Assembly (NCBI GenBank): GCA_016191815.1
Contig: JACPVI010000006.1
Location: 248,001 to 312,000 of the forward strand
Length of the DNA: 64,000 bases
Reading direction: 5' to 3'
DNA from: Myxococcales bacterium
Lineage (GTDB): Bacteria > Myxococcota > Myxococcia > Myxococcales > Myxococcaceae
A program made the translations under genes and the position numbers. The first letter of the stretch is position 1; each line of letters starts with the position of its first letter. Of the stretch, positions 14,122-55,016 are shown piece after piece. The notes under the pieces are model-generated. The model searched no databases. It was not told the DNA's origin and was given only the letters and a program-made list of their open reading frames with translations.

Positions 14122-14832
14122 TCAGATGTACTGTCCGGCGTCCACGCGGATCACCTCGCCGGTGATCATCCGCGCCGAGTCGGAAAGGAGGAACATCACC
14201 GCCTCCGCCACGTCGCTCGGCTCCGCCAGCCGGTTGAGCACCGTCTCCGCCAGCGCCTTCCGGCGGACCTCCTCCGCGAGCGCCAGGGCCATCTCGGTGA
14301 GCACCATGCCCGGCGCCACCGCGTTCACGGTGATCCCCTTCGGCCCAAGCTCGCGCGCCGCGGTCTTGGTGAGAGCGATCAGGCCACCCTTCGACGCCGC
14401 GTAGTTCGCCTGCCCGAACTTCCCACGCAGGCCGTTGATGGAGCTGATGTTCACGATTCGCCCGTAGCCTGCTTCGCGCATCAGCGGGGCGAGGGCGCGA
14501 ATCATGTGGAACGCCCCGGTGAGGTTGACCTGCAGCACCGCCTGCCACTCCTCGTCGCTCATCTTGAGCAGGCTCTTGTCGCGGGTGATGCCGGCGTTGT
14601 TGACCAAGAGCACCGTGCTCTTGGGGAGCTTCGCCACCGCATCGCCCACGCTCGCCGCGTCCGCCACGTTCGCCTGGTGAAAGGAAAGTCGCGTCCCCGG
14701 CTCACCCGGGGACACGTCGAACACGTGCACCTCGGCCCCCGCTTGCGCGAGCGAGCCGGCGATCGTCCGGCCGATCCCGCGTGCGCCTCCGGTCACCACC
14801 GCCGTCCGGCCTTCGAAGCTCCAGGTCGCCAT
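14122..14832 (-). CDS. Short-chain dehydrogenase/reductase, FabG/PhaB-like
   Basis: 236 residues with the full classical SDR set: TGGARGIG near the N-terminus, NNAG, the catalytic Ser (NISSING) and Y144/K148 (YAASK). NADP(H)-dependent reduction of a 3-oxoacyl thioester (ACP or CoA) is the likely reaction. No acyl-carrier or PHB gene is adjacent, so the substrate is open. The start at 14832 gives the usual N-terminus (WSFEGRTAVVTGG). It is separated by 26 bp from the Memo-AMMECR1 gene upstream. Confidence 0.88.
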   Translation of the reverse strand: MATWSFEGRTAVVTGGARGIGRTIAGSLAQAGAEVHVFDVSPGEPGTRLSFHQANVADAASVGDAVAKLPKSTVLLVNNAGITRDKSLLKMSDEEWQAVLQVNLTGAFHMIRALAPLMREAGYGRIVNISSINGLRGKFGQANYAASKGGLIALTKTAARELGPKGITVNAVAPGMVLTEMALALAEEVRRKALAETVLNRLAEPSDVAEAVMFLLSDSARMITGEVIRVDAGQYI

Positions 14833-14858
14833 GCACCCGGAATGAGAGCGTTCGGTTT

Positions 14859-16322
14859 TCAATGCTCGTCTCCCAGGTATTGGACCGCGTAGGACTGGTA
14901 CTTCGCCGCGGGTTCCCTCCAGCACTCCAGAGGAGAGCCCTGCTTCGCGCAGAGGTGGGAGAGGAACTCCACCGGGTCCGGCAGCTCCTCCCAGACCTGG
15001 GGAAGGAACGTGGAGCGGCGGCCGCCGTATTCGAGGATCAGCCCCGGCTTGGACTGCGCCAGGTGGGAGGGGAGCTGCGCCGCCGGCACCCCCTCCAGGG
15101 GCTTGGGAAGGTCGAGCACCGAGATGGACAGCGAGAGGGAGCCCAGTTCTTCCGGTTTCACCGGAGGGAAGCGCGGGTCCGACACCGCCGCGTTCACGGT
15201 GTTCCGCACCACGTCGAGAGCGAGCGGCTGGATGGGCGAGAGGCTCCCGATGCAGCCGCGGAGCTGGCCTTCCTTCGTCAGGGTGACGAAGGCGCCGCGC
15301 GGAGTGGTGAGCCGCCGGAAGCGAGCGGTCAGCTCGGGAGGGACGTCGATCTCCTTCCCCTCGCGGACTCGCGCTCCCAGCGCGCGCTTCGCAAGCTCGA
15401 CCAGCGCGTTCCCCTCGGCGGCGCTCAGCTCGAAACGCTCCTCGTAGGCGATCGCGCCGTAGCCGACCACCCGCGACTTCTCCCCGGAGGTGTCGCCCGA
15501 GTTGGCGTAGGAGATCAGCCTGGGCGTCAGCGCCCGGATGGACGCAAGCTCGTTCATCAACAGCAGCACCTGCGTTCCATCGGTGTCGCACTTGGCGACC
15601 TCCACCGCATCGGAGCGCGCGAGCGCATCGAGGCACGGCCGGTCCAGCCCCTGGGCCACCTCGTAGGGGTAGTAGTGCGAGAGGTCCACGCTGAAGACGA
15701 ACGCCGTCTTCGGGTCGGCTAACCGGGACAGCTCGCGGGCGGCGAGGCGGATCTGATCGTGGCCGAGCGAGCCGGCGATGAGCGGGACGATCTCGAACGG
15801 CCCAGAGCCGACTGCCCTGAGGAAGGGAAGCTCGATCTCCACCATGTGCATCCCGTGGACCGCCGGCAGGTCCACGAAGCCCGGCCGCGAGAGCAGCTCG
15901 GCGGCGGCCCGCGCGACCGGAACCTCCAGCCCGGGCACCCGGTAGTGAGTGGAGCGGTCCACCGAGATGCCGGCGAAGTGATGGGCTCCGTCGTGGTTGG
16001 CGGCCACGATCACCACCCGCTCGAAGCCGGGCTCGAGTTGCTTGAAGGCGTCTGCGGCGATCCGCCCCGAGTAGGAGAGCCCGGCGTGCGGGGCGAGCAC
16101 CATCCGCACCGGCGCAGCCGCGATCTTCTTCGCGCTCTCGAGGTGGCGGCGGACCTCCGCCTGGAGCGCCGGGGCTTCCGCCGGGTAGAAACTCCCCACT
16201 GCGGCGGGCGGTCGGACAACTTTGGGAGCCGAGCTGGCAACTCCGGCGTCGGTCCCGGACTGCCGCTGGCAGCTTCCGCAAGCGGCGAGGGCGGCGGCGG
16301 AAGCGGTGAGCAGCCATTTCAT
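14859..16322 (-). CDS. AmmeMemoRadiSam system: Memo-AMMECR1 fusion lipoprotein
   Basis: 487 residues. The ATG at 16322 overlaps the stop of the upstream fusion gene (ATGA) and gives a lipoprotein signal (KWLLTASAAALAACGSC, lipobox LAAC). An earlier in-frame ATG (16361) would bury the signal. Residues ~40-290 are Memo-like (system protein B), with conserved His-containing motifs LAPHAGLSYSG and AANHDGAHH and the DLSHY motif. Residues ~297-480 are AMMECR1-like (protein A), with the hallmark LRGCIGSL and DPRFPP motifs. B and A are often separate genes beside a radical SAM enzyme; their function is unknown. Here they form one polypeptide predicted to be outside the cytoplasm. Confidence 0.88.
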   Translation of the reverse strand: MKWLLTASAAALAACGSCQRQSGTDAGVASSAPKVVRPPAAVGSFYPAEAPALQAEVRRHLESAKKIAAAPVRMVLAPHAGLSYSGRIAADAFKQLEPGFERVVIVAANHDGAHHFAGISVDRSTHYRVPGLEVPVARAAAELLSRPGFVDLPAVHGMHMVEIELPFLRAVGSGPFEIVPLIAGSLGHDQIRLAARELSRLADPKTAFVFSVDLSHYYPYEVAQGLDRPCLDALARSDAVEVAKCDTDGTQVLLLMNELASIRALTPRLISYANSGDTSGEKSRVVGYGAIAYEERFELSAAEGNALVELAKRALGARVREGKEIDVPPELTARFRRLTTPRGAFVTLTKEGQLRGCIGSLSPIQPLALDVVRNTVNAAVSDPRFPPVKPEELGSLSLSISVLDLPKPLEGVPAAQLPSHLAQSKPGLILEYGGRRSTFLPQVWEELPDPVEFLSHLCAKQGSPLECWREPAAKYQSYAVQYLGDEH

Positions 16323-19300
16323 GTCTCGAACACCCCCGCGATCGGCTCGCCGCACGGGCATCTCCCATCGGAGAGCTCGAACCGCGTGACGTGGTAGCCC
16401 TTCCGCTCGATGAGCAGCCTCCCGTCCTTCGGGCAGCGCGTGTGGTTCCCCTCGTGGCCGGGGACGTTGCCGAGGTACACGAACTGCAAGCCTTCGTCCA
16501 CCGCCCGCTGCCTGGCCTTCTCCATCTTGGGGATCGGAGTCCAGGGGAGGTGCTCCAGCCGGTGCGCCGGGTGGAACCTCAAGATGTGGAAGGGCGTCGA
16601 CGGACCCAGGGCCTCGGCCACCCAGCGCGCGAACTCGGCGATCTCCCCGGGCTCATCGGAGAGCGAAGGCACCATGAGGAAGCTCACCTCGATCCACACC
16701 CCTTCCTCGCGGAAGACCTCGAGCGCCCGCAGCACCGGCTTGAGCCTGCCTCCGCTCACCTCGCGGTAGAAGGACTCGCGGAAGGCCTTCACGTCCAAGG
16801 TCACCGCGTCGATGTGGCGGCACAGCTCCCGGAGCGGGCGCTCGTTGATGTATCCCGCGGTGACCAAGACGTTCTTGATGCCCTTCTCCCGCGCCAGCTC
16901 CGCCGCGTCGCGGACGTACTCGTAGGAGACCAGCGGCTCCGAGTAGGTGTAGGCGATCGCCGGCGCCTTGCTCTCGGTGGCGAGCCTCACCAGGTCTTCC
17001 GGCATGGCCTCGATCGAGGCGACCTCGTGCGGACGGGCCTGGGAAATCTCCCAGTTCTGGCAGTTGAGGCAGCGAAGGTTGCAGCCCCCGATGGCCACCG
17101 AGAGGATCGGCGAGCGGGGCATGAAGTGGTAGAGCGGCTTCTTCTCCATCGGGTCCATTGCCGCCGAACAGAGATTTCCGTAGGCCACCGAGTGGAGCTT
17201 CCCGCCCTTCACCACCCGAGTGCGGCAGAACCCGCGATCGTTCTCTCCGAGGATGCAGGCGTGCGGACAGAGGACGCACTGGAGCAAGTGTCCCTTCTCG
17301 ATGGACCAACTGGCCGGCCGGGAGAAGCGGTCCAAGGTGCCGGGCGCGTCGTTGCGGAAGCCCACTCCCAGCCCGGGCTCGGCAGACCGCAGGCCAAATT
17401 CCTCGACGCCCTGGGCGCCCAGGATGAGCACTCCGCAGCCGGCGGCGGAGCGGCGGAGGAAGAGCCTCCGGTCGGTCTTTTGGGGCGCCAGTGTCGCGAC
17501 TTCGCCGCGCGAGCCCGCCAAAGCGGAGCTCTCCCGTTCCTCGGCGGGAGCCGGCGGTGGCCGCCGCTCGAGGTCTGGTCCGACTCGCCGCTCGAGCTTT
17601 CCGAGCGCCTGGGAGGCCGCGCCGATGGGGCAGAGCGCCTCGCAAAACGGGCGCCTGACGAACAGCGAGAACAGTAGTAGCGCCGCAGCGGAGGCGAGCA
17701 CCCACAAGGACGGGGAGAAGGCGTTCTTGAAGAAGAAGGAGAAGAAAGGACCGCCCTCCACGCCCTCGCCCCGGTCCTGCCGGGCGGCGAAGTAGGCCAC
17801 GGCCACGAACAGGAGGACCGCCAGCCGGGGCACCCACAGACCGGCGATGCGCCTTGCCCGTCGGCCCGCCAGCCGCTCGCAGGCGCCTTGCAACGTTCCC
17901 AGCGGGCACAGCCGCTCGCAGAAGCGTTGCCCGTGGAGGTTCGCCAACAGCCCGGCGGTGACCGCGTATGGCCGGAGGACACCGAAGACGCAGGGCCTGG
18001 GGCACACATGGCAGAAGAGGTAGGGAACCCGGAAGTAGCAGCGGGCGAGCGGGAAGGCGGCCACCGGCAAGAGCAAGGCGTAGTGCGCGAGCGTTCCCAG
18101 GTTGGCGCCCGTCCACTCGCGGACCCCCGAGAGCCGCCGCGCCAGTTGGACGGTGGCCCGGCGGAGGAGCATGGGTTCGAACGCCGCGGCCGCGGCCCAG
18201 AAAAAGAGGAGCAGCGCCAGGACTTGGTAGGGGACCAGGAAGGTGAACGCGTACAGCGGCACCTGGGTGCGGTCCGCGGCGGCGGCGAGGACGAAGGCGG
18301 CGAAGGCGAGGGGCAAAAGGGGCGCCAGCTGGCGCGGGGGGGCTGCGCACTCCTCGGCGGCAGGCAGCAGCAGCGCGGCTGCGCTCAGGGCCTTGATCGC
18401 CGCGAGCGCCAGCACGGCGCCGGAGAGCCCCAAGGCCGGCACGGCCACCGTGAGCATCAACAGGGCGGCCACCGCCGCGCCGACGAGGTCGGTGGCGTAG
18501 AGCGAGCCGGCGATCCCCGGCCTGTGCGCGAGGGCGCGCGCCGCCACCGCGAACTGGGCGCCAGGCAATAGCCCCGCGAGCACGGTGGCCGTGAAGCACA
18601 GCGCCCGGGCGGCTCCCGGCTGTGCGCCGGCAATTGCCGGCAGCGTGGCCCACAGCGCGAGGAGAAGCCCAATCTGGGCGGCGTCGAGGACCAACACCGC
18701 TCGCCTCGACGCAGTCCAGCGCGCCGCGAGGGCCGAGCCGGCCGCGGCCCCGACCATGAAGCCGGCGAGCAAGAGCCCCAGCTCCCGGTACAGAGCTCCG
18801 GCGGCGATCTGGTAGGCGAGCATCAGGGCGAGCTGGGCGGAGAGCCCGCTCGCGCCGCTGGTCATCACCGCCAGGTGGATCGGCCGCCGCCGCGGGCCCA
18901 GCACCAGCAGCGCCCCGGCAGCCAGCGCCGCGGCCACCAGCGCCAGAGAGGTGACTCCCAGGTCTCCGAACTCTGCGAGCAGCCGGTCCAGGGCGAGCCG
19001 GAAGGTAGTGGGGTGGAGGTCACGGTTGATCGCCTCATCGAGGGAAGCCCAGCGCGAGGCGTCGGCCATCCGCCGTGGGGAGAAAAGATGCGCGAGCGCG
19101 GCTTCGCCGAGGTGTGCTGGCGCGATCCGGCGCGCCGCCAGGGCCGCCGAGACTTGCTCCGCGCCTCCGGTCAGCTTTCGCCCTTTGGCTGTGAGGTAGA
19201 AGGTGCGATCCGCGGGGAGGATGTGCACCCCCCCCATCACCGAAGCCAGAGTGGCCCGCACCGACGAGTGCAGCCGCCGGCTGTGCTCGCCGGCATAGGC

Positions 19301-20485
19301 GGCGTGGCCGGGCATGGAGACGGCCAAAAGCCCACCCGGGTTGAGCGCGTCCCGGGCAGCTTCGTATAGCTCCGCGGTGAAGAGGCGGTTGAGCTGAGCG
19401 GAGGTCGGCTCGCTGGAGACGAGGAGAATCGCGTCATAGGCGGCAGGACGTGAAAAGAGCCACCGGCGCGGGTCCGCCGCGCGGAGCGACAGGCGCGAGT
19501 CCGAGAGGTCTCCGAAGGCCCGCTCGATGGTGGAGAGGAGCGCCCCGTCTTCTAGCACGTAGTCGATCCGCTCCACGCCGTGGCGGAGCACCTCCCTGGC
19601 GGTGCCGACCGGCGCCACGCCGATGATGGCCACCGCGCGGGGCGAAGGGTGGAACGCGAGCGGGAGGTGGGCGGACTCTTCCGCCGCGGACTGGTCCGAA
19701 TGAGTGGCGACCGGCATCCGGTCGACGAGCACGGTGGCTTGCCCGGCGGGCCCGGAGACGACGATCGACGCGTAGGCGGAGTCGCGGCGCTCCCGGACCT
19801 CCAGGTGCGGCGCCTGGAGCGACACCGTCCACTCGTCCAGGGGCATCACGCAAAGCGCGGCGGCGACTGCCGCTGCCACGGCAAGGGCAGGTGCCGCCGC
19901 CTTGCGTGAAAAGCCCAGCACCGCCGCGAAGGTCGAGCACAGGAGGATTCCCGCCGCGATGCCGGCGGGCGGGGCGTTTCCGAGCACCACAAGGCTGAGG
20001 GCCGCCCCGGCAGCGGCCGAGCCGACCGATTCGAGGAGATATGCTCGGGCAGCGCCCTCTCCTGGAGCGCCGGCAGTCGGCTGGGCACGCGCGGATAGCC
20101 ACGAGAAGCACGCCCCAGAGAGAAGGCAGCACGGGGCGGCGAGCGCCGCGGCAGCGAGGAACGCGAACGCCACCCCAGGCGGCGAGCCGGCCGGGAAGAG
20201 GCGCGGCAGAACCCGCGCGGCGAACAGCGTGGCGAGTGCGAGTGGACCGTAGAGGAGCAGCGCCAGCGAAAGAGGGCCCTCCCTCGCGCCGGTTCTGCCC
20301 AGCCAGGCCCCCGCCGCGGTGAGCAACAGCCAAGGGCCGAGGAGCGCCGCGAGCACCGCTTCGTTTCCCGAGAAGGCCGCCAAAAGCTCGCGCCCGAGGA
20401 GCGTCTGGAACGCCGCGGTGCAGGCGCCCGCCAATAGAAGGCGCGCCCACCCAAGCCGCACCGGGGAGGTCGGGGCGGGAGTCAT
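16319..20485 (-). CDS. Fusion: polytopic spermidine synthase-like / membrane polyferredoxin / AmmeMemoRadiSam radical SAM enzyme
   Basis: 1388 residues in one uninterrupted frame. Residues 1-225: about seven membrane helices. Residues 225-400: spermidine synthase-like soluble domain (VLVDRMPVATHSD; DYVLEDGALLSTIERAFG; AYDAILL). Residues ~500-790: a second helical block as in SpeE-MFS proteins. Residues ~800-980: NapH/CcoG-like polyferredoxin with CHVCPRPC (~824), CERLCPLG (~855) and CEALCPIG (~947). Residues ~1003-1030: a twin-Arg segment (DRRLFLRRSAAGCGVLILG). Residues ~1060-1388: AmmeMemoRadiSam-type radical SAM domain with an N-terminal Cys set (CVLCPHAC) and CX3CX2C at C1135/C1139/C1142. 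The next gene encodes Memo-AMMECR1 with an ATGA overlap. The ATG at 20485 is preferred over a GTG at 20521; neither has a clear ribosome-binding site. Confidence 0.88.
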   Translation of the reverse strand: MTPAPTSPVRLGWARLLLAGACTAAFQTLLGRELLAAFSGNEAVLAALLGPWLLLTAAGAWLGRTGAREGPLSLALLLYGPLALATLFAARVLPRLFPAGSPPGVAFAFLAAAALAAPCCLLSGACFSWLSARAQPTAGAPGEGAARAYLLESVGSAAAGAALSLVVLGNAPPAGIAAGILLCSTFAAVLGFSRKAAAPALAVAAAVAAALCVMPLDEWTVSLQAPHLEVRERRDSAYASIVVSGPAGQATVLVDRMPVATHSDQSAAEESAHLPLAFHPSPRAVAIIGVAPVGTAREVLRHGVERIDYVLEDGALLSTIERAFGDLSDSRLSLRAADPRRWLFSRPAAYDAILLVSSEPTSAQLNRLFTAELYEAARDALNPGGLLAVSMPGHAAYAGEHSRRLHSSVRATLASVMGGVHILPADRTFYLTAKGRKLTGGAEQVSAALAARRIAPAHLGEAALAHLFSPRRMADASRWASLDEAINRDLHPTTFRLALDRLLAEFGDLGVTSLALVAAALAAGALLVLGPRRRPIHLAVMTSGASGLSAQLALMLAYQIAAGALYRELGLLLAGFMVGAAAGSALAARWTASRRAVLVLDAAQIGLLLALWATLPAIAGAQPGAARALCFTATVLAGLLPGAQFAVAARALAHRPGIAGSLYATDLVGAAVAALLMLTVAVPALGLSGAVLALAAIKALSAAALLLPAAEECAAPPRQLAPLLPLAFAAFVLAAAADRTQVPLYAFTFLVPYQVLALLLFFWAAAAAFEPMLLRRATVQLARRLSGVREWTGANLGTLAHYALLLPVAAFPLARCYFRVPYLFCHVCPRPCVFGVLRPYAVTAGLLANLHGQRFCERLCPLGTLQGACERLAGRRARRIAGLWVPRLAVLLFVAVAYFAARQDRGEGVEGGPFFSFFFKNAFSPSLWVLASAAALLLFSLFVRRPFCEALCPIGAASQALGKLERRVGPDLERRPPPAPAEERESSALAGSRGEVATLAPQKTDRRLFLRRSAAGCGVLILGAQGVEEFGLRSAEPGLGVGFRNDAPGTLDRFSRPASWSIEKGHLLQCVLCPHACILGENDRGFCRTRVVKGGKLHSVAYGNLCSAAMDPMEKKPLYHFMPRSPILSVAIGGCNLRCLNCQNWEISQARPHEVASIEAMPEDLVRLATESKAPAIAYTYSEPLVSYEYVRDAAELAREKGIKNVLVTAGYINERPLRELCRHIDAVTLDVKAFRESFYREVSGGRLKPVLRALEVFREEGVWIEVSFLMVPSLSDEPGEIAEFARWVAEALGPSTPFHILRFHPAHRLEHLPWTPIPKMEKARQRAVDEGLQFVYLGNVPGHEGNHTRCPKDGRLLIERKGYHVTRFELSDGRCPCGEPIAGVFET

Positions 20486-47654: not shown

Positions 47655-50600
47655 CTAGTTGATCTCGACGACAACGGGGCAGACCATCGCGTTTGCAGCA
47701 CCCGTGCACTTGGTTCCGAATGCTCTAAGCGTGCTGATCGAGCCAAGCTGCAGTTGTGCTTTGACGACGGCGTCCTCTACGGCCGCGCGTCCTTTGAGAG
47801 CTTTGAGGACTTCGCGAACTGTCCTGTAGCCCTCGTCTTGATTGATGTCTACGTCCCAGCCCAGGTACGCTTCGGCTCCGAACTTCGCCGCAAACTGTTC
47901 GGCGGCGCTTCCCTGTTGTCCCGAGCGGCAGCCGTCAATCCACACAAACCTATACTGAAGCCCCCCAGGCAGGTCATCAGGAGTCAATAGCTGATCCTCG
48001 ACCTTCGAGGAGAAGAACGGCGGGTCGACTGCAATCCCGATGAAGACTTCGTCAGGGACTGCGGAGTGCGTGTCGGTGAGCCACAGGCTGGCTTTCGGCG
48101 CAGCGTCCAGCGCGTCCTGCTTGCTCAGCGATCGATCCTTGATGATCTCGTAGCCAAGTCCCGCTCCTGGGCCCACGAGCGGGATGACCAGATTGTAATT
48201 GCCTTCGGCACGCTTCCGCCCGTCGGGGCTCTCGTAGTAGTAGGCGACGAACGCTGTTCGGTCGCGGCGCCGGGTATCGATAGGCTCGCTCGCAACGAAG
48301 GTCACGCTGATTTCCTCTCCGGCGCTCGGGGTAGTCGAGGAGAGTTCGAAAGCGGTGAAACCTGGCGGCGCGGTTCCCCCAGATTCGATCGCCACGAAAG
48401 GAGTGGATCTAAAAGCGCCATCAGGCTGGCGCGTGACAGTGACTGAACTGCTGCGAACAGGATTCTGGCTCGTGAGCGTGACTGAGAAACTTGCCGCCGC
48501 CTGGTCGGGATCAATCGCGCCAGCCACGAAAGTGGATGCGGACGACGGTGACGCGGGCGCCACGTTCAGCGCCGGTAGTCGTGACCCGCTCCTGAACGCC
48601 AGCGAATTGTTGGCAGTCTCAACGGACGCGACCCGCTCGTTGGCCAACGACGCCGAAACCACAGTGATGTCCCAAACCTGCCAATCGCGGGCGAGCGGGT
48701 CGAACCCAGAGGACGACTGGAGGATCGCCGTGACATTGCCCGTTGGGTCCTGGAACCGTCGGCTGTCTGCCGCCGTTTCCGTAACCGTCACGAGAAGGCC
48801 GGTTCCGCTGAGGGGCGGCACGACGATCATGTCAGCGCGGTCTTCGACCAGAGCGGAGAGCGGCTGGCGGAGATAGGCTTGGACTTCCCCGCCCGAGTCG
48901 TGGAAGAAGCTCGAAGCTGCCCGACTCTCGCGCAGATCGAATCGGGACACGGCGAGGTTCAGGCTTGTGCTCTCGGCGAGCACCCCGGACAGCGATTCAC
49001 TCACCGCGGGATCCAGAGTTGGCGCCGCGGGCAGGGTGACGCGCACCGCCGCGCCGGGGCTCTCGAAGACCAGACTCGTGTTGCTCGTCTCGAGCAGGTC
49101 CCCACTGAAGAGACCGTCCGGACCTGCCCCAAGGGTGACAGAGACTCGGTCCGCCGCAGTGGAGCTGAGCGGCCCAGAGAAGGCTAGGTCCAGCGCCGCG
49201 CCGCCTTCGGGAGGCGGGCCCGCCCCGACACCGCTTTGCGGTACGAACACCGATACCGAACCCGCGAGGGAACCCTCGATGCGTGCTGCGCCTACAGGTT
49301 GTACCGCCACCGCACGGGCGCTCGATGAGACCGTGACTTCGCGCAGAACCTGTGCGCTCGTGCCTGTGGTGGCGCGCACATTGTCGTACTTCAGAACCAG
49401 AAGTTTCCCGTCAAAGCGGGTTGCAAGAATGTGCTCGCCATCTGGCGTGAACGCTATTCCCAACACCCCTTGTTGGAGGCCAGGTTTGGGAGTCGATGCA
49501 GAGTACGTGAGCGTGCTGGCTACCAACGGCTCGCTGATCAGACCCACATTCGATGTCAACTGGTCCATCCCGGCAGCCGCGAGGTGCACCGTTGGCGAGA
49601 AGGCGATGTCGCGAGGCGCGTGAATGTCGGTCCCAATCGCTCCGCCAGTCGCGACCTTCGTGTCGATCTTCCGAACGATCGTGCGAGTTATGGAGTCGAC
49701 CACCTCAATCGCACCCGCCACGGCGGGAGCCACCGTTGTCCCCGAGGCAACAAACAACGTGGGGTTCCCACTTCGTTGCCTGGGCGCGATCCGAACTCGT
49801 CTTGCCGTGGCACCGACGGTGAGCAGCGTCGGTGAGCCAGTGGGAAGGAGAGTGTCCGCGTCAAGGAAAGCGAGCTTGCCCTTGCCAAGAACGAACAGGG
49901 TTTGACCGTCGTGGGAGACCTCAACATCGAACAAGGGAGACGCACCCGAAAGAAGCTGGTTCGCCCCGGTCAACTGCACATCCGCGATCTTGGTATGGAA
50001 AGTCGCAGACCCGGGGCTCGCGTCTAGCACCGCCAGATTGTCCCGGCAGGCGACATATACACGGCGGCCGTCCGGGGAAACCCGCAGGGAGGAGGGGCCC
50101 GTCGGCATCGGAATCAGCGGGCCTTGCGTTGGCGCAGCAGCGGGAACTTGACGGAGATCGAGTATCCCGACTTGATTCGTGCCAAGGAGGCTCATGTAGG
50201 CGTAGTCAGCCTGTGGCCTCAGCGCAATGCTTGTTGGCGACGCGGCAAGCGGAATCGGCGCGCCCACCGTTGTCCAAAGATTGGCATCCGGGTTTCGGAT
50301 GTCGATCGGCTGAACAGAGCTCAGCGCCCCGACGTACGCGTACGGGTGGAGGGCTTTCACAACCTGTAAGCCCGAGCTGGTGCCCCCGGAGGTTGCTACG
50401 GTCACGAGGCCCGTCTGGAAACCGCCTGGCACGGTGGCCGTAATGCTGGTGGGCGACGCCGCAGTCACCTGGGCGGCCACGCCTGGGAAGAACTCGACGC
50501 GGCTTTCCCCGATGACGCTGGAGAAGTTCGCTCCGGTCAAGGTCACGCTGTCGCCAACCTGCAATAGGCTTGGGCTGATGCTCGTGAGCGATGGTGCAGG

Positions 50601-53600
50601 CGGCGGGGTGACGATCGCGGTCTTCGCGAGAGCGAAGGGAGTGTCGGCGTTGCTTGCTACGCCGCCGGTCTCGACGCTGATGGCACCCGAGACAGCGCTC
50701 GCGGGAATCGTCGCTCGCAATTCCGTCGCAGAAACCGCCGTTACCGATGTGGAAGCAATCCCGCCGAACTTGACGACGTTGTTGGAGGACACGGGATCGA
50801 AGCGAGCGCCCAATATCGTGACTACAGTTCCGGGCGGCCCGTGGTCAGGGGAGGCGCTGAGCACCGTGGGCGCGTGTTGCACCGCAAAAGCAAGGGGGTT
50901 GCTCACTTGGCCGGTGACGGCATCAGTCAGTTCGACCGGTCCCGACTGGGCGCCGGGCGGCACCTTTACGTCCAGCGAGGTCGGCGCAGCGGCGAGAACT
51001 GTGGCGAGTCGTCCGCTGAACGTCACCAGGCTATCAGCGGCATTCGTGGAGAATCCGGCGCCGGAGATTGTCACAAGGGCGTTCGGAGGCCCATTGTTTG
51101 GTGTCAGGGCGGTAAGCGTGGGTCCTCCCGACGCGGCCAACACGGTGAACGGGAGCGCGTTGCTTGCCTGACCAAGCCGCGTCACCTGAATGCTCGCTGC
51201 GCCGGCCGGCGCGTTGGGGACAGGAGCGACCAGAAAGGTCGGCGAAACTTCCAAAACCGCGGCGGCGGTTCCGGCGATAGTCACGGTGTTTCCAGCTGGT
51301 GCTGCATCAAAACCGAGGCCGGAGATCGTCACGGTGGCCCCCGGAACCCCTTGGTTGGGGCGCACCGACTGGAGGAGCGGCGCTTGGCGCGTGAATGTCG
51401 CCGTGGCTGAGCCGGCGTTACCCTGATTATCCTTGATGGTGGCCTGTAGAGAATGAGCCCCGACCGAAACGTTGGTCAGCTTCCCGATGATCCGACCGGT
51501 AGGCTGATACATGTTCGTGAGTGCGACCGTCGCTCCATCCAACGCCAGGACAAAAGTCGAACTGTCGATCCCGCTGCTTGGACTGGGATCTGCGTACGTC
51601 ACCTCGACACTCACCGTCGAATCAAAGACGATCGAGCTTGAGGCCGGTGCTACAATTACTACCGTGGGAGGCGCGATGTCCTCGGATGGGTCGCACGCAG
51701 TGCCGACGCCATTCCCGTTGAGATCCTGCTGATTCGGGTTCGCAGCGGTCGGGCAGTTGTCGCAGGTGTCACCGACGCCATCGGCATCTCCGTCAACCTG
51801 ACTCGCGTTGGCGACAAGGGGGCAGTTGTCGGCGCCAGTGCATGCCGCGGCTGTCTGTCCAGGATCGCAAATGCCATCGCCATCATCGTCTGAATCGCAG
51901 GCGTCACCCTGGCCATCGGTGTCACTGTCCCTTTGGTCGGCGTTTGCGACCATCGGGCAGTTGTCGGTGGTATCTGGCTCGCCGTCGTTGTCGTCGTCGG
52001 GGTCGCAGGCATCGCCCAGGCCGTCGGCATCGGTGTCATCCTGGTTCGGGTTGGGCGTCGTCGGGCAGTTGTCCGGACCCTTCACGCGGAAGCCATCTCC
52101 GTTCTCCACACCGTCGGTGTCGAGGTGAGTGTCATAGATGAGGCGCACCCTGTGGTTGGCGGCATCGGCCACGAGGAGGTCGCCGTCCTTCGTGAGCGCC
52201 ACTCCCGTCGGGTCGAAGAAGGCGGTGCCGACCGGATGCCGTCCATCGCCGTCATAGGCGCAGGCGTTGGCCCATAGGTTGGGGAAGATGACGATGCGCT
52301 GCCTGTCGCCGCCCAACTCCGTGAGGCAGCCCGTTTGCCCCGAGCGGACGGAAATACGCTGTTGGAGTCGCTCGGTGAAGTAGATGTCGCCGGTCTTGCT
52401 ATTCACCGCCATGCCGGCCAGATCGCCGAACGGAAAATCCAGGCTGAAGGCGGGTCTGGGAATCGGGGGAAGCAAGGTTTCCCTTTCCCCACCCAGCACC
52501 GTCTTCGCCAAACCGCAGGTGCCGTTCGCCGCGGGCCAGACCGTGACCGGAGAAGAACCCGCCGGCGCGAGATTCACGACCTCAAGCGTCTTGCTTTGAT
52601 TGTCGGCTATGTAGAGGAGCTTCGTCGAAGCCCCGCTCTGCAACCCAGCGGGAGAAACGGCGGCCACGAAGGGCCGACGAGTGAGGCCGCCCTGCGGGGT
52701 GGGACAGATGCCCCCGATGCTCGGAGGCATCGGAGGCAGCGGCACTCGGGTGAAAGGCGGCGCAGCCAGCCTCACCCCGGCGCCGCCAGCAGGCACAACG
52801 AAGTACTGGCTGCCGATGACGTACACGTCCCCGGTGTCCGCATCGACCGCGAGGCCCAGCACCTCGCCCAAGTCGGAAGCCGTCGCGGGCGACACCAGGT
52901 TCGACATGGAAGTGACGGCAGTCGTGCCTCCGCCCGCGTAGGGAGAGGCCGTCCCTCCGGAGATTTTCCACACCTGCTTCCCCACCCTGTCTCCCACGAA
53001 CGCCTCTCCGGCCTTGTTGACGCCCAAGCCGATGCCTCGCACGCCGCTTACGCTGCCCTTGAGCACCAGCCTTTGAGTGGCGGCGTCCAGCTTGTAGACG
53101 CTCGTCTTGGTGCCATCGTAGCTGCTCGCGTAGAAGGAGCCGTCGTCGGCCACCGCGGTCCACTCGGGCGTGGGGAGGGCCGTCTTCCACGCCTCCACCG
53201 TCGTGCTGGTGGTGCCGGAGGTGCCGTCTCCCGCCAAAGTCTCCACCCGAACGTCCGATGGCACGGTGGGCTGGAGGCCGTCTTGGTAGATGGAGAAGCT
53301 CGTGACGCGCGCGTGCATGAGGCCGCCGCTCTCGGATGCTCCGGCCACCTCCCCGAAGACGCCCTGGCCAGAGTCGAGCCGGTACATCCGCACCCTCGAA
53401 ATGTCGCCCCAGACTGCCGGAAGCAGCGTCCGGTCGAAGGGCACCGAGATGGTGACTGGCACGGCGAAGCCCGAGGCGTTCGTCTCGAAGGCCACCGCCG
53501 GGCCGAGCGCCACCACTCCGTCTCCGAGCGGAGGCAGCGAGTCCGCCTCAATCAGCCGAATCCAAACCCACACCTGCTGGGAGACGGCGCCCGGCGGCAC

Positions 53601-55016
53601 CGCCACCGAGGCCCCCAACAGAGGGCCGACTGCCGTCACTGACACGCTCCCACCGCCGGGGCCGATGAGGGCATAGGCGGGCGGCCTTTGGTGGAGGACA
53701 GTCACATCGAAAACCGAGAGGTTGCCAGCCTCGTCCTCGGCCTCCGCGCGAATGAGGTTTTGGCCCTCCGACAGCGTCACCTCGGAGGTGAAGTTGCCCT
53801 GGGCCAGTGCCGCTGCCACCGCGTTGACTCTTACCTCCTTCAGGAGGAAGTCGTCGGCTGCACTGCCCCGCACTTGCACCACTATCTCCTCGGTGGCCGC
53901 ACCGTCTGCCGGCGCCGAGACGACTACCGTGGGCGGAACGCCATCGTGCCGGACGGCGACGGTGGCCTCGGGCCCGGCGTTTCCCGCCAAGTCCACCGCG
54001 GTCGCGCGGAGTTGGTTTTCCACGTTGGGCGCAAGTTGCACTGCCACCGAGAAGTGGCCGGCCGCGTCGGCGACGGTGGAAGCGGGGGAGCTCCCGCCGA
54101 GGACGAAGACAGTGGCGAAGGCCTCGGTGCTGCCTGAGAGGGAGATGGGGGTTTGGTTGGTGGGACTGCGCACCGGCTCCAGGGTGGGGGCTGGCGGCGG
54201 CGTGGTGTCGCCCAGCGCGCGGAGCAACGCGTCGAATTCGGCTTGCTGCCGAGTCACCGAAAGCCATCGCTTGGCCGCCTCCTCCGCTCCCTTAGGAGGG
54301 AAGGCGTCTCGCCCCTTCTGCGCCCCCATGAAGGCGATGAGAAGCTGCTTCACCGGGTTGGCAACTACGGTTGAAGGGGAGCTCACCACGCGGTCGTCCC
54401 CCGGAGCACCCTTGCCGCCAGGCGGTGCAGAGTTGTGGGCCGCAGCGTTGAGGCCCTCGCCCAAGTCGTTGCCCCGCGCTACCTCCCACACCAGGAATTG
54501 CCGCTCAAAGGGAAGCCCCGCCACCTGCGCCGACGACAGCGGAGCGCTGGCGGCCAGATTGACGGCTTGGGCCACCTCCAGCACGGACTTCGGGGCTCCG
54601 TAGGCGAGCCGGCGAAGCTCTGCACAGTTCAGCGCGAAGGTCCCGTGGAGCCGAATCGCCGCGCCTGCCGCCGTCATCCTCCGCTCTGCCGGGCCGAGCG
54701 CCGAGATAGAGGGGTAGACGGCCAGCGGGCCTACCGCTTCGAGGGAGTCGAGCAGGAGGAAGGCCTCGCGCGAGATCTGGCCCAGCGAGAACTCTTCTAC
54801 CGGCCGGCTTGGGTTCGCCGCCTTCAATTCCTCTACGAGGGAGTCGATCGGCAATCCGCAGTTCGCAGCTCCGGGCGTCAGCGGCCCATCGCCTCCTTCG
54901 GGTCGCGCGGCCTCGTCCTTGGATGACGTGCAGCCAAGCGCCGCGAACGCGCATGCGATGATGCCGACAGCGGCCAATCTTGAACGATTCGCGTTCCTCC
55001 AGAGGCGGCTTTGCAT
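47655..55016 (-). CDS. Giant multidomain lipoprotein: Ig-like, NHL, thrombospondin type 3, IPT, beta-propeller, caspase-like C-terminus
   Basis: 2453 residues with a lipoprotein signal ([14 protein letters not shown]). In order: a helical N-terminal part; Ig-like domains (~275-440, [14 protein letters not shown]...); a ZU5-like segment ([14 protein letters not shown] ... VPPGAVS, ~450); NHL-type repeats (~590-970); and calcium-binding thrombospondin type 3 repeats (~976-1112, D-rich, [21 protein letters not shown]). Three or four IPT/TIG domains (~1216-1553) follow, then a YVTN-like propeller (~1560-1900). The C-terminus carries H2317 ([10 protein letters not shown]) and C2363 ([12 protein letters not shown]), spaced as in caspase-like proteases. 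It is probably a surface adhesin or sensor. GGAAGGGGG precedes the ATG. Confidence 0.88.

Follow-up and report, generated by a model that had tools for sequence, protein, structure and literature searches.

The window analysed here is a stretch of 64,000 nucleotides from a Myxococcales bacterium (contig JACPVI010000006.1, positions 248,001 to 312,000), and this report concerns two overlapping genes on its minus strand that match the components of the AmmeMemoRadiSam (Memo-Ammecr1) system. The first gene (16319-20485) begins with an ATG at 20485, ends with a stop at 16319 and runs for 1388 uninterrupted codons; a plus-strand reading of the same interval was rejected, as it is full of stops. From its N-terminus, the 1388-residue product comprises a major facilitator superfamily (MFS) part with a SpeE-like (spermidine synthase-like) domain, a polyferredoxin, a twin-arginine translocation (Tat) motif and a radical S-adenosylmethionine (SAM) domain. 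Pfam placed Spermine_synth (PF01564) at residues 271-417 (48.6 bits), Fer4_5 (PF12801) at 928-969 (34.1 bits) and Radical_SAM at 1132-1286 (66.2 bits), and the NCBIfam model TIGR04337 (AmmeMemoSam_rS) matched residues 1060-1387 with 327.7 bits, against a cut-off of 220. The open frame and both domain searches bore out the original prediction that a SpeE-like membrane protein, a polyferredoxin and the AmmeMemoRadiSam radical SAM enzyme are joined in one frame, with all three modules found in a single gene. Its further claim that no protein with this order had been described agreed with the open-access literature that was searched, where no paper on the architecture was found and none naming both spermidine synthase and polyferredoxin.

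The second gene (14859-16322, minus strand, 487 aa) starts at the stop codon of the first, in an ATGA overlap, and encodes a lipoprotein signal followed by a MEMO and an AMMECR1 domain. The signal peptide, MKWLLTASAAALAACGSC (16269-16322), has a lipobox after a hydrophobic stretch. The MEMO domain (AmmeMemoSam_B, 15447-16214) scored 163.8 bits with TIGR04336 and the AMMECR1 domain (AmmeMemoSam_A, 14877-15407), in which the LRGCIG motif is intact, 174.3 bits with TIGR04335, each above the curated cut-off. The APHAG, NHD and KCDTDG motifs are kept in the MEMO domain and, following what is known of MEMO1, contain its candidate metal ligands. Since the gene next to the fusion encodes both remaining components above their cut-offs, the two genes, judged by profile matches, hold a complete AmmeMemoRadiSam set. 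The original prediction was incomplete in this respect, as well as in regard to an ordinary cytosolic set in the same genome. The latter, located at C2:81.6-84.1 kb, consists of separate, unsignalled MEMO, AMMECR1 and radical SAM genes (607 bits for the radical SAM enzyme), and as the genome has kept it, we rejected the idea that the usual system had been replaced throughout the host. At G000:C23, a 970-residue protein contains another weak match to AMMECR1, the third (43.8 bits), and about 10 kb from it lies a further radical SAM-like gene of broadly the same type (L148:2263-7004, 14206-15315).

The codon-position composition of the fused gene was that of coding sequence throughout the junction, with G+C at third codon positions (GC3) of 0.78-0.93 in each segment from the polyferredoxin onward. 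The full fusion was also present in a second genome, G107 (locus L037), as a single frame of 1360 codons. The two proteins were 66% identical in the polyferredoxin-linker part and 74% identical in the radical SAM part, and the G107 linker ahead of the Tat motif was shorter by whole codons, which is an in-frame length difference. Because the coding composition stays continuous and G107 carries the fusion in one frame, the earlier concern about a collapsed stop was dismissed.

Relatives were sought in 195 Myxococcota genomes and by a scan of one genome per species (84,980 species). The subclade has at least six members, namely the window, G107 (L037), G157 (L038), G058 (L039), G011 (L052 = L057) and L058, and its rarity was demonstrated for the Myxococcota only. 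One gene encodes both the SpeE-like part and the polyferredoxin in L038, L039 and L058, and the radical SAM enzyme has a gene of its own directly after it (with ATGA-type overlaps in L038 and L039). In G011 the radical SAM gene is likewise separate, and the SpeE-polyferredoxin gene lies 20 kb off on the same contig. The radical SAM part is thus fused in two of the six members and separate in the other four, while the SpeE-like part and the polyferredoxin form one gene in all six; the refuting possibility that homologues are always encoded separately was thus borne out by half. On these gene structures, the fusion is real but not universal in the subclade. When searched against the 195 Myxococcota genomes, the polyferredoxin profile returned 254-391 bits in only the five genomes holding the radical SAM subclade, the next score being 38 bits. 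The radical SAM hits in the viral collection numbered five and were weak and distant.

The separate radical SAM genes of L038, L039 and L058 begin at the Tat motif (MTSRRLFLKRCLAGCG, MRRAFLKKCAAAGG and RRRFLRQLIVGG), and the separate enzymes carry the N-terminal twin-arginine signals MTSRRLFLKRCLAGCGAAVLG (L038), MRRAFLKKCAAAGGLALLG (L039), RRRFLRQLIVGGCSAILAG (L058) and SRRRFIKQVVAGCGAAALG (G011). Canonical enzymes start 10-20 residues ahead of the first cysteine motif, without such an extension. In the two fusions the motif is internal (DRRLFLRRSAAGCG, DRRLFLRRSVAGCG) and follows a linker of differing length. As read from the sequences, the Tat signal of the separate relatives survives as the internal DRRLFLRR of the fusion.

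An AlphaFold2 model of residues 1-790 (predicted local distance difference test score, pLDDT, 87; predicted template modelling score, pTM, 0.88) indicated the architecture of the membrane part. Its helices matched MFS structures, such as SV2A (Z 26.4 over 329 residues, root-mean-square deviation 4.0) and SLC15A4 (Z 20.6 over 364 residues), and the SpeE-like fold matched spermidine synthase 1uir (Z 28.1 over 284 residues). The N-terminal part is accordingly modelled as a predicted 12-helix MFS fold in two six-helix halves, with two extra helices flanking the SpeE-like domain. The first half (TM1-6, residues 8-189) is encoded at 19919-20464 and the second (residues 535-706), assigned from the model, the structural match and loop charges, at 18368-18883, so that the two polytopic blocks of the original prediction were found and could be refined to the halves of one predicted bundle. 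The SpeE-like domain (residues 226-492, 19010-19810) is held between the extra helices TM7 and TM8. Loop charges in up to 18 homologues alternated as expected under the positive-inside rule for 14 helices with both ends cytoplasmic, and the SpeE-like domain is predicted to lie outside the cytoplasm. Two further helices (residues 717-775, 18161-18337), predicted from hydrophobicity and loop charges, link the MFS part to the polyferredoxin; with the four of the polyferredoxin, these bring the predicted total before the Tat motif to 20. Sec-Tat insertion requires an even number of helices at this point, and the predicted number is even.

The SpeE-like domain was aligned to Thermotoga SpeE, in which we take Asp170 and Asp173 to be catalytic, Glu121 to bind ribose and GGGDGG to form the cofactor loop. 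The corresponding residues of the window protein are V356, E359, L311 and GVAPVG. An active spermidine synthase was rejected on the replacement of the catalytic aspartates and the GGGDGG loop, and SAM binding by the domain is not claimed because these elements are lost. The proposal that the SpeE-like part binds SAM-like ligands does not follow, as residues with which spermidine synthases bind and use decarboxylated SAM are gone. Two wider Tat-tagged relatives, L059 and L067, keep more of the nucleoside-binding motif (VELD) in the alignment.

The polyferredoxin (residues 796-952, 17630-18100) is NapH/NosR-like, with PF12801, invariant cysteines and weak NosR and NapH profile matches, and has four predicted helices. 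Two CxxxCP motifs lie at 856-861 and 948-953; the third of the three CxxxC(P)-type motifs announced earlier is a CxxCxxxC (825-832) preceded by C816. All eight cysteines (those of the CxxxCP motifs at 856 and 948, and C816, C825, C828 and C832) were invariant in five homologues. The conserved CYFxxPxxxCHxCPRxC motif is predicted on the outer face and the CxxxCP motifs on the cytoplasmic face; loop charges of the four-helix part were as expected with CxxxCP inside, in a region that was modelled with low confidence. The internal twin-arginine motif DRRLFLRR (1005-1012) and the helix after it (residues 1004-1032 together, 17390-17476) were assigned from the conservation of DRRLFLRRS in G107 and from the Tat signals of the separate genes. 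The model placed a helix at 1006-1030, directly at or after DRRLFLRR, again with low confidence. In Sec-Tat dual-inserted proteins the last helix is weakly hydrophobic and has positive charge behind it; here the best 17-residue hydrophobicity mean of this helix was 1.39, TM1, TM9 and TM18 being as low or lower, and one arginine follows soon after. The radical SAM domain (residues 1060-1388, 16322-17308), by contrast in model quality, had pLDDT values mostly above 95 and the predicted fold of pyruvate formate-lyase activating enzyme (3cb8/3c8f, E about 1e-13). Its CX3CX2C motif is formed by C1135, C1139 and C1142, and further cysteines lie at C1070, C1073, C1077 and C1087.

The distribution of the Tat signal was evaluated in 100 loci with long flanks, gathered by similarity, in which related loci are non-independent and counts describe association rather than natural frequency. 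Tat tags were scored by a regular expression, with L099 counted as untagged in the tree and the statistics. A SpeE-like membrane protein was close by in 17 of the 23 loci with a Tat-tagged radical SAM enzyme versus 1 of the 77 untagged loci (Fisher p 2.5e-13), and the tagged loci came from Myxococcota, Thermodesulfobacteriota, Bacteroidota, Aminicenantes and Altiarchaeota, among others. MEMO and AMMECR1 were fused in 10/11 Tat-tagged entries (G011 being included twice, as L052 and L057) versus 1/51 untagged ones; the single untagged case, L050, has a lipobox. Export signals were present in all nine distinct readable MEMO/AMMECR1 N-termini on the Tat side, eight lipobox-like and one a signal peptide (L065), the set leaving out L058, for which the MEMO-AMMECR1 start is undecided. 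In G058, the only MEMO gene of the genome is unlinked, on another contig, and yet encodes a lipoprotein (LLPAVLLFAACSRRE). A tree built from 109 radical SAM domains requires 3 changes of the Tat label, versus 21 expected by shuffling.

The loci in this set showed additional features. In L050, a SpeE-like/MFS part is fused to FMN_bind and a NosR-like polyferredoxin and followed by ApbE (L050:11074-16004), and this fusion adjoins the MEMO-AMMECR1 lipoprotein and the radical SAM gene. ApbE flavinylates extracytoplasmic carriers. By its gene content, L050 thus has an independent electron-transfer fusion, of extracytoplasmic type, on a membrane protein of the kind found in the window, and this is a separate hint that electrons pass through the polyferredoxin there. 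DUF362 genes stand beside Tat-tagged AmmeMemoRadiSam radical SAM genes in L046 (9513-10553, with a Tat-like signal), L076, L118 and L122. In the Altiarchaeota loci L059 and L067, Tat-tagged AmmeMemoRadiSam enzymes are encoded near SpeE-like membrane proteins, so the putative exported branch is not only bacterial.

Comparison with known systems showed where the locus departs from them. All three AmmeMemoRadiSam components (TIGR04335/04336/04337) score above their cut-offs in adjacent genes; the usual members are three small unsignalled proteins, whereas here one lipoprotein combines two of them and the radical SAM enzyme, behind a Tat motif, is fused to an electron-transfer/transporter-like membrane protein. 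With the fused MFS/spermidine synthases (NF037959) and membrane-bound polyamine aminopropyltransferases (PRK03612), the window protein shares the predicted MFS and SpeE folds. Two relatives, L058 and L067, score above the NF037959 cut-off (59 bits versus 40); the window protein has no NF037959 match, and unlike these families it lacks the catalytic residues and continues into a polyferredoxin and a radical SAM domain. Like the extracytoplasmic electron-transfer systems of NosR/NapH/RnfG type with ApbE, the window protein has two CxxxCP motifs, which are predicted to face inward, and in L050 the likeness extends to the FMN_bind, polyferredoxin and ApbE that accompany the SpeE-like part. The window protein differs from NosR and NapH in its scores (NapH 18.8 bits versus 213, NosR 23 bits versus 1000) and has no FMN_bind domain. 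A close parallel for the junction is a NapH-NapG type fusion, MLMS-1 PFD, for which Sec-Tat dual insertion and Tat export were demonstrated experimentally (Tooke et al. 2017, PMC5449189). There, as is predicted here, a Sec-inserted four-helix polyferredoxin with inner-face clusters precedes a Tat motif with its helix and an iron-sulfur domain that is exported by Tat (PMC5449189). The exported domain would, however, be a radical SAM enzyme rather than a NapG-type ferredoxin, and an MFS/SpeE-like module comes first, so that the Tat motif follows about 20 predicted helices rather than four.

We propose that the locus encodes the membrane core of an extracytoplasmic AmmeMemoRadiSam system, with a probability of roughly two in three. 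The internal Tat motif and the predicted topology would place the radical SAM domain outside the cytoplasm. The enzyme would fold and acquire its iron-sulfur clusters in the cytoplasm, after which Tat would move the folded enzyme across the inner membrane, the twin-arginine motif being used internally after an even number of Sec-inserted helices. The radical SAM enzyme would then be located at the inner membrane on its periplasmic side, next to the MEMO-AMMECR1 lipoprotein. The polyferredoxin would pass electrons from the cytoplasm or the quinol pool through the two CxxxCP clusters to the radical SAM cluster, with the third, four-cysteine site on the outer face probably in the path. The MFS and SpeE-like part may supply or remove a small molecule, for which SAM or its products are the first candidates. 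The domains, their fusion, the neighbouring lipoprotein gene, the Tat motifs and the co-inheritance are seen in the sequences, and the topology and folds are predicted; we infer the direction of electron flow, the transport of SAM and the action on an extracytoplasmic or membrane substrate. This reading draws on the single frame shared with G107, the Tat signals of the separate enzymes, the association of Tat tags with SpeE-like genes and with fused, signal-bearing MEMO-AMMECR1, the distribution of the polyferredoxin, the few changes of the Tat label on the tree, the loop charges and helix count, the L050 fusion and the NapH-NapG precedent. The earlier suggestion that a membrane electron-transfer unit reduces the radical SAM cluster stands as the most economical reading, although it was made without the Tat motif and the predicted outside location. 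It is a more tentative, and on our estimate rather doubtful, joint proposition that a radical SAM enzyme working outside the cytoplasm is served by a dedicated membrane module, in which the polyferredoxin brings electrons across the membrane and the MFS part with its outside SpeE-like domain brings SAM or its products, the two genes forming the complete machine, and that less fused systems of this kind occur in several bacterial phyla and Altiarchaeota.

Several points weigh against an extracytoplasmic system. A SAM pool is not known to exist outside the cytoplasm, and a SAM link through the SpeE-like domain is not suggested by the sequence of that domain. Confidence is low for the polyferredoxin and the Tat helix in the model. 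A SpeE-like neighbour is missing from six Tat-tagged loci (in one, a SpeE-like gene is 20 kb away), L050 combines SpeE and a lipoprotein MEMO-AMMECR1 with no recognisable Tat signal, and in relatives beyond the subclade the polyferredoxin is mostly not part of the same gene. The open-access literature search, which did not cover the MEMO-context survey of Burroughs et al. 2019 (J Biol Chem), where exported forms may be mentioned, turned up no periplasmic radical SAM enzyme.

Among the alternatives, the one that survives best accepts an extracytoplasmic complex in which SAM is not supplied by the MFS/SpeE-like part; this part would carry a pathway substrate or product or modify a lipid or polyamine, and the enzyme would be exported loaded with SAM or obtain it otherwise. 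This is a serious possibility, short of even odds. It is favoured by the replacement of the catalytic, GGGDGG and ribose-binding residues of SpeE by V356, E359, GVAPVG and L311, while the fuller nucleoside-binding motif (VELD) of L059 and L067 and the strong link of the SpeE-like part with SAM-consuming enzymes across bacteria and archaea speak for a SAM-related role. A MEMO homologue in archaeal mevalonate operons (PMC3857490) also fits this alternative, pointing to isoprenoids as a possible substrate; on the same ground, a membrane isoprenoid is a reasonable guess for the substrate, and no more. Less probably, and unlikely in our estimate, the polyferredoxin withdraws electrons, or serves cluster repair or another enzyme, rather than reducing the radical SAM cluster. 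By established bioenergetics, the quinol pool is by itself too weak a reductant for such a cluster unless energy is put in, but two genomes carry the polyferredoxin and the radical SAM enzyme in one protein, and in Myxococcota the polyferredoxin is confined to genomes with this enzyme. We consider it improbable that the radical SAM domain stays in the cytoplasm, with the twin-arginine motif as a relic or membrane anchor, the polyferredoxin reducing it inside and the lipoprotein MEMO-AMMECR1 working separately outside. The cytoplasmic location of SAM and the usual reductants would fit such an arrangement, as would the two CxxxCP clusters, whose predicted inner-face position is close to where the radical SAM domain is attached. 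Nevertheless, within the junction of the two fusions the twin-arginine motif is conserved best and the linker ahead of it varies, the motif constitutes a complete N-terminal Tat signal in the relatives, and the partners carry export signals whenever it is present. A sequencing or assembly artefact (a lost stop or frameshift) would agree with the separate radical SAM genes of four related genomes, but the equivalent fusion in the independent genome G107, with its in-frame linker difference, and the unbroken coding composition make it negligible.

Elsewhere in the window, the short-chain dehydrogenase/reductase (SDR) gene downstream of the system (14122-14832) was treated as a mere neighbour, as none was seen beside the system in L037 or L038. 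A minus-strand frame at 47655-54977 encodes a predicted 2440-residue lipoprotein-like product and has a G+C content of 0.62-0.64, versus about 0.70 around it.

Because it depends on SAM and on a strong reductant, radical SAM chemistry is regarded as a cytoplasmic process. If confirmed, an exported branch supplied by an electron line of its own would break this rule, and one would have to ask how SAM gets to the far side of the membrane. In its fused form, the system has a parts list fixed at one membrane protein and one lipoprotein. MEMO and AMMECR1, both of which are linked to human disease, would gain a compartment and partners in which their chemistry becomes testable.

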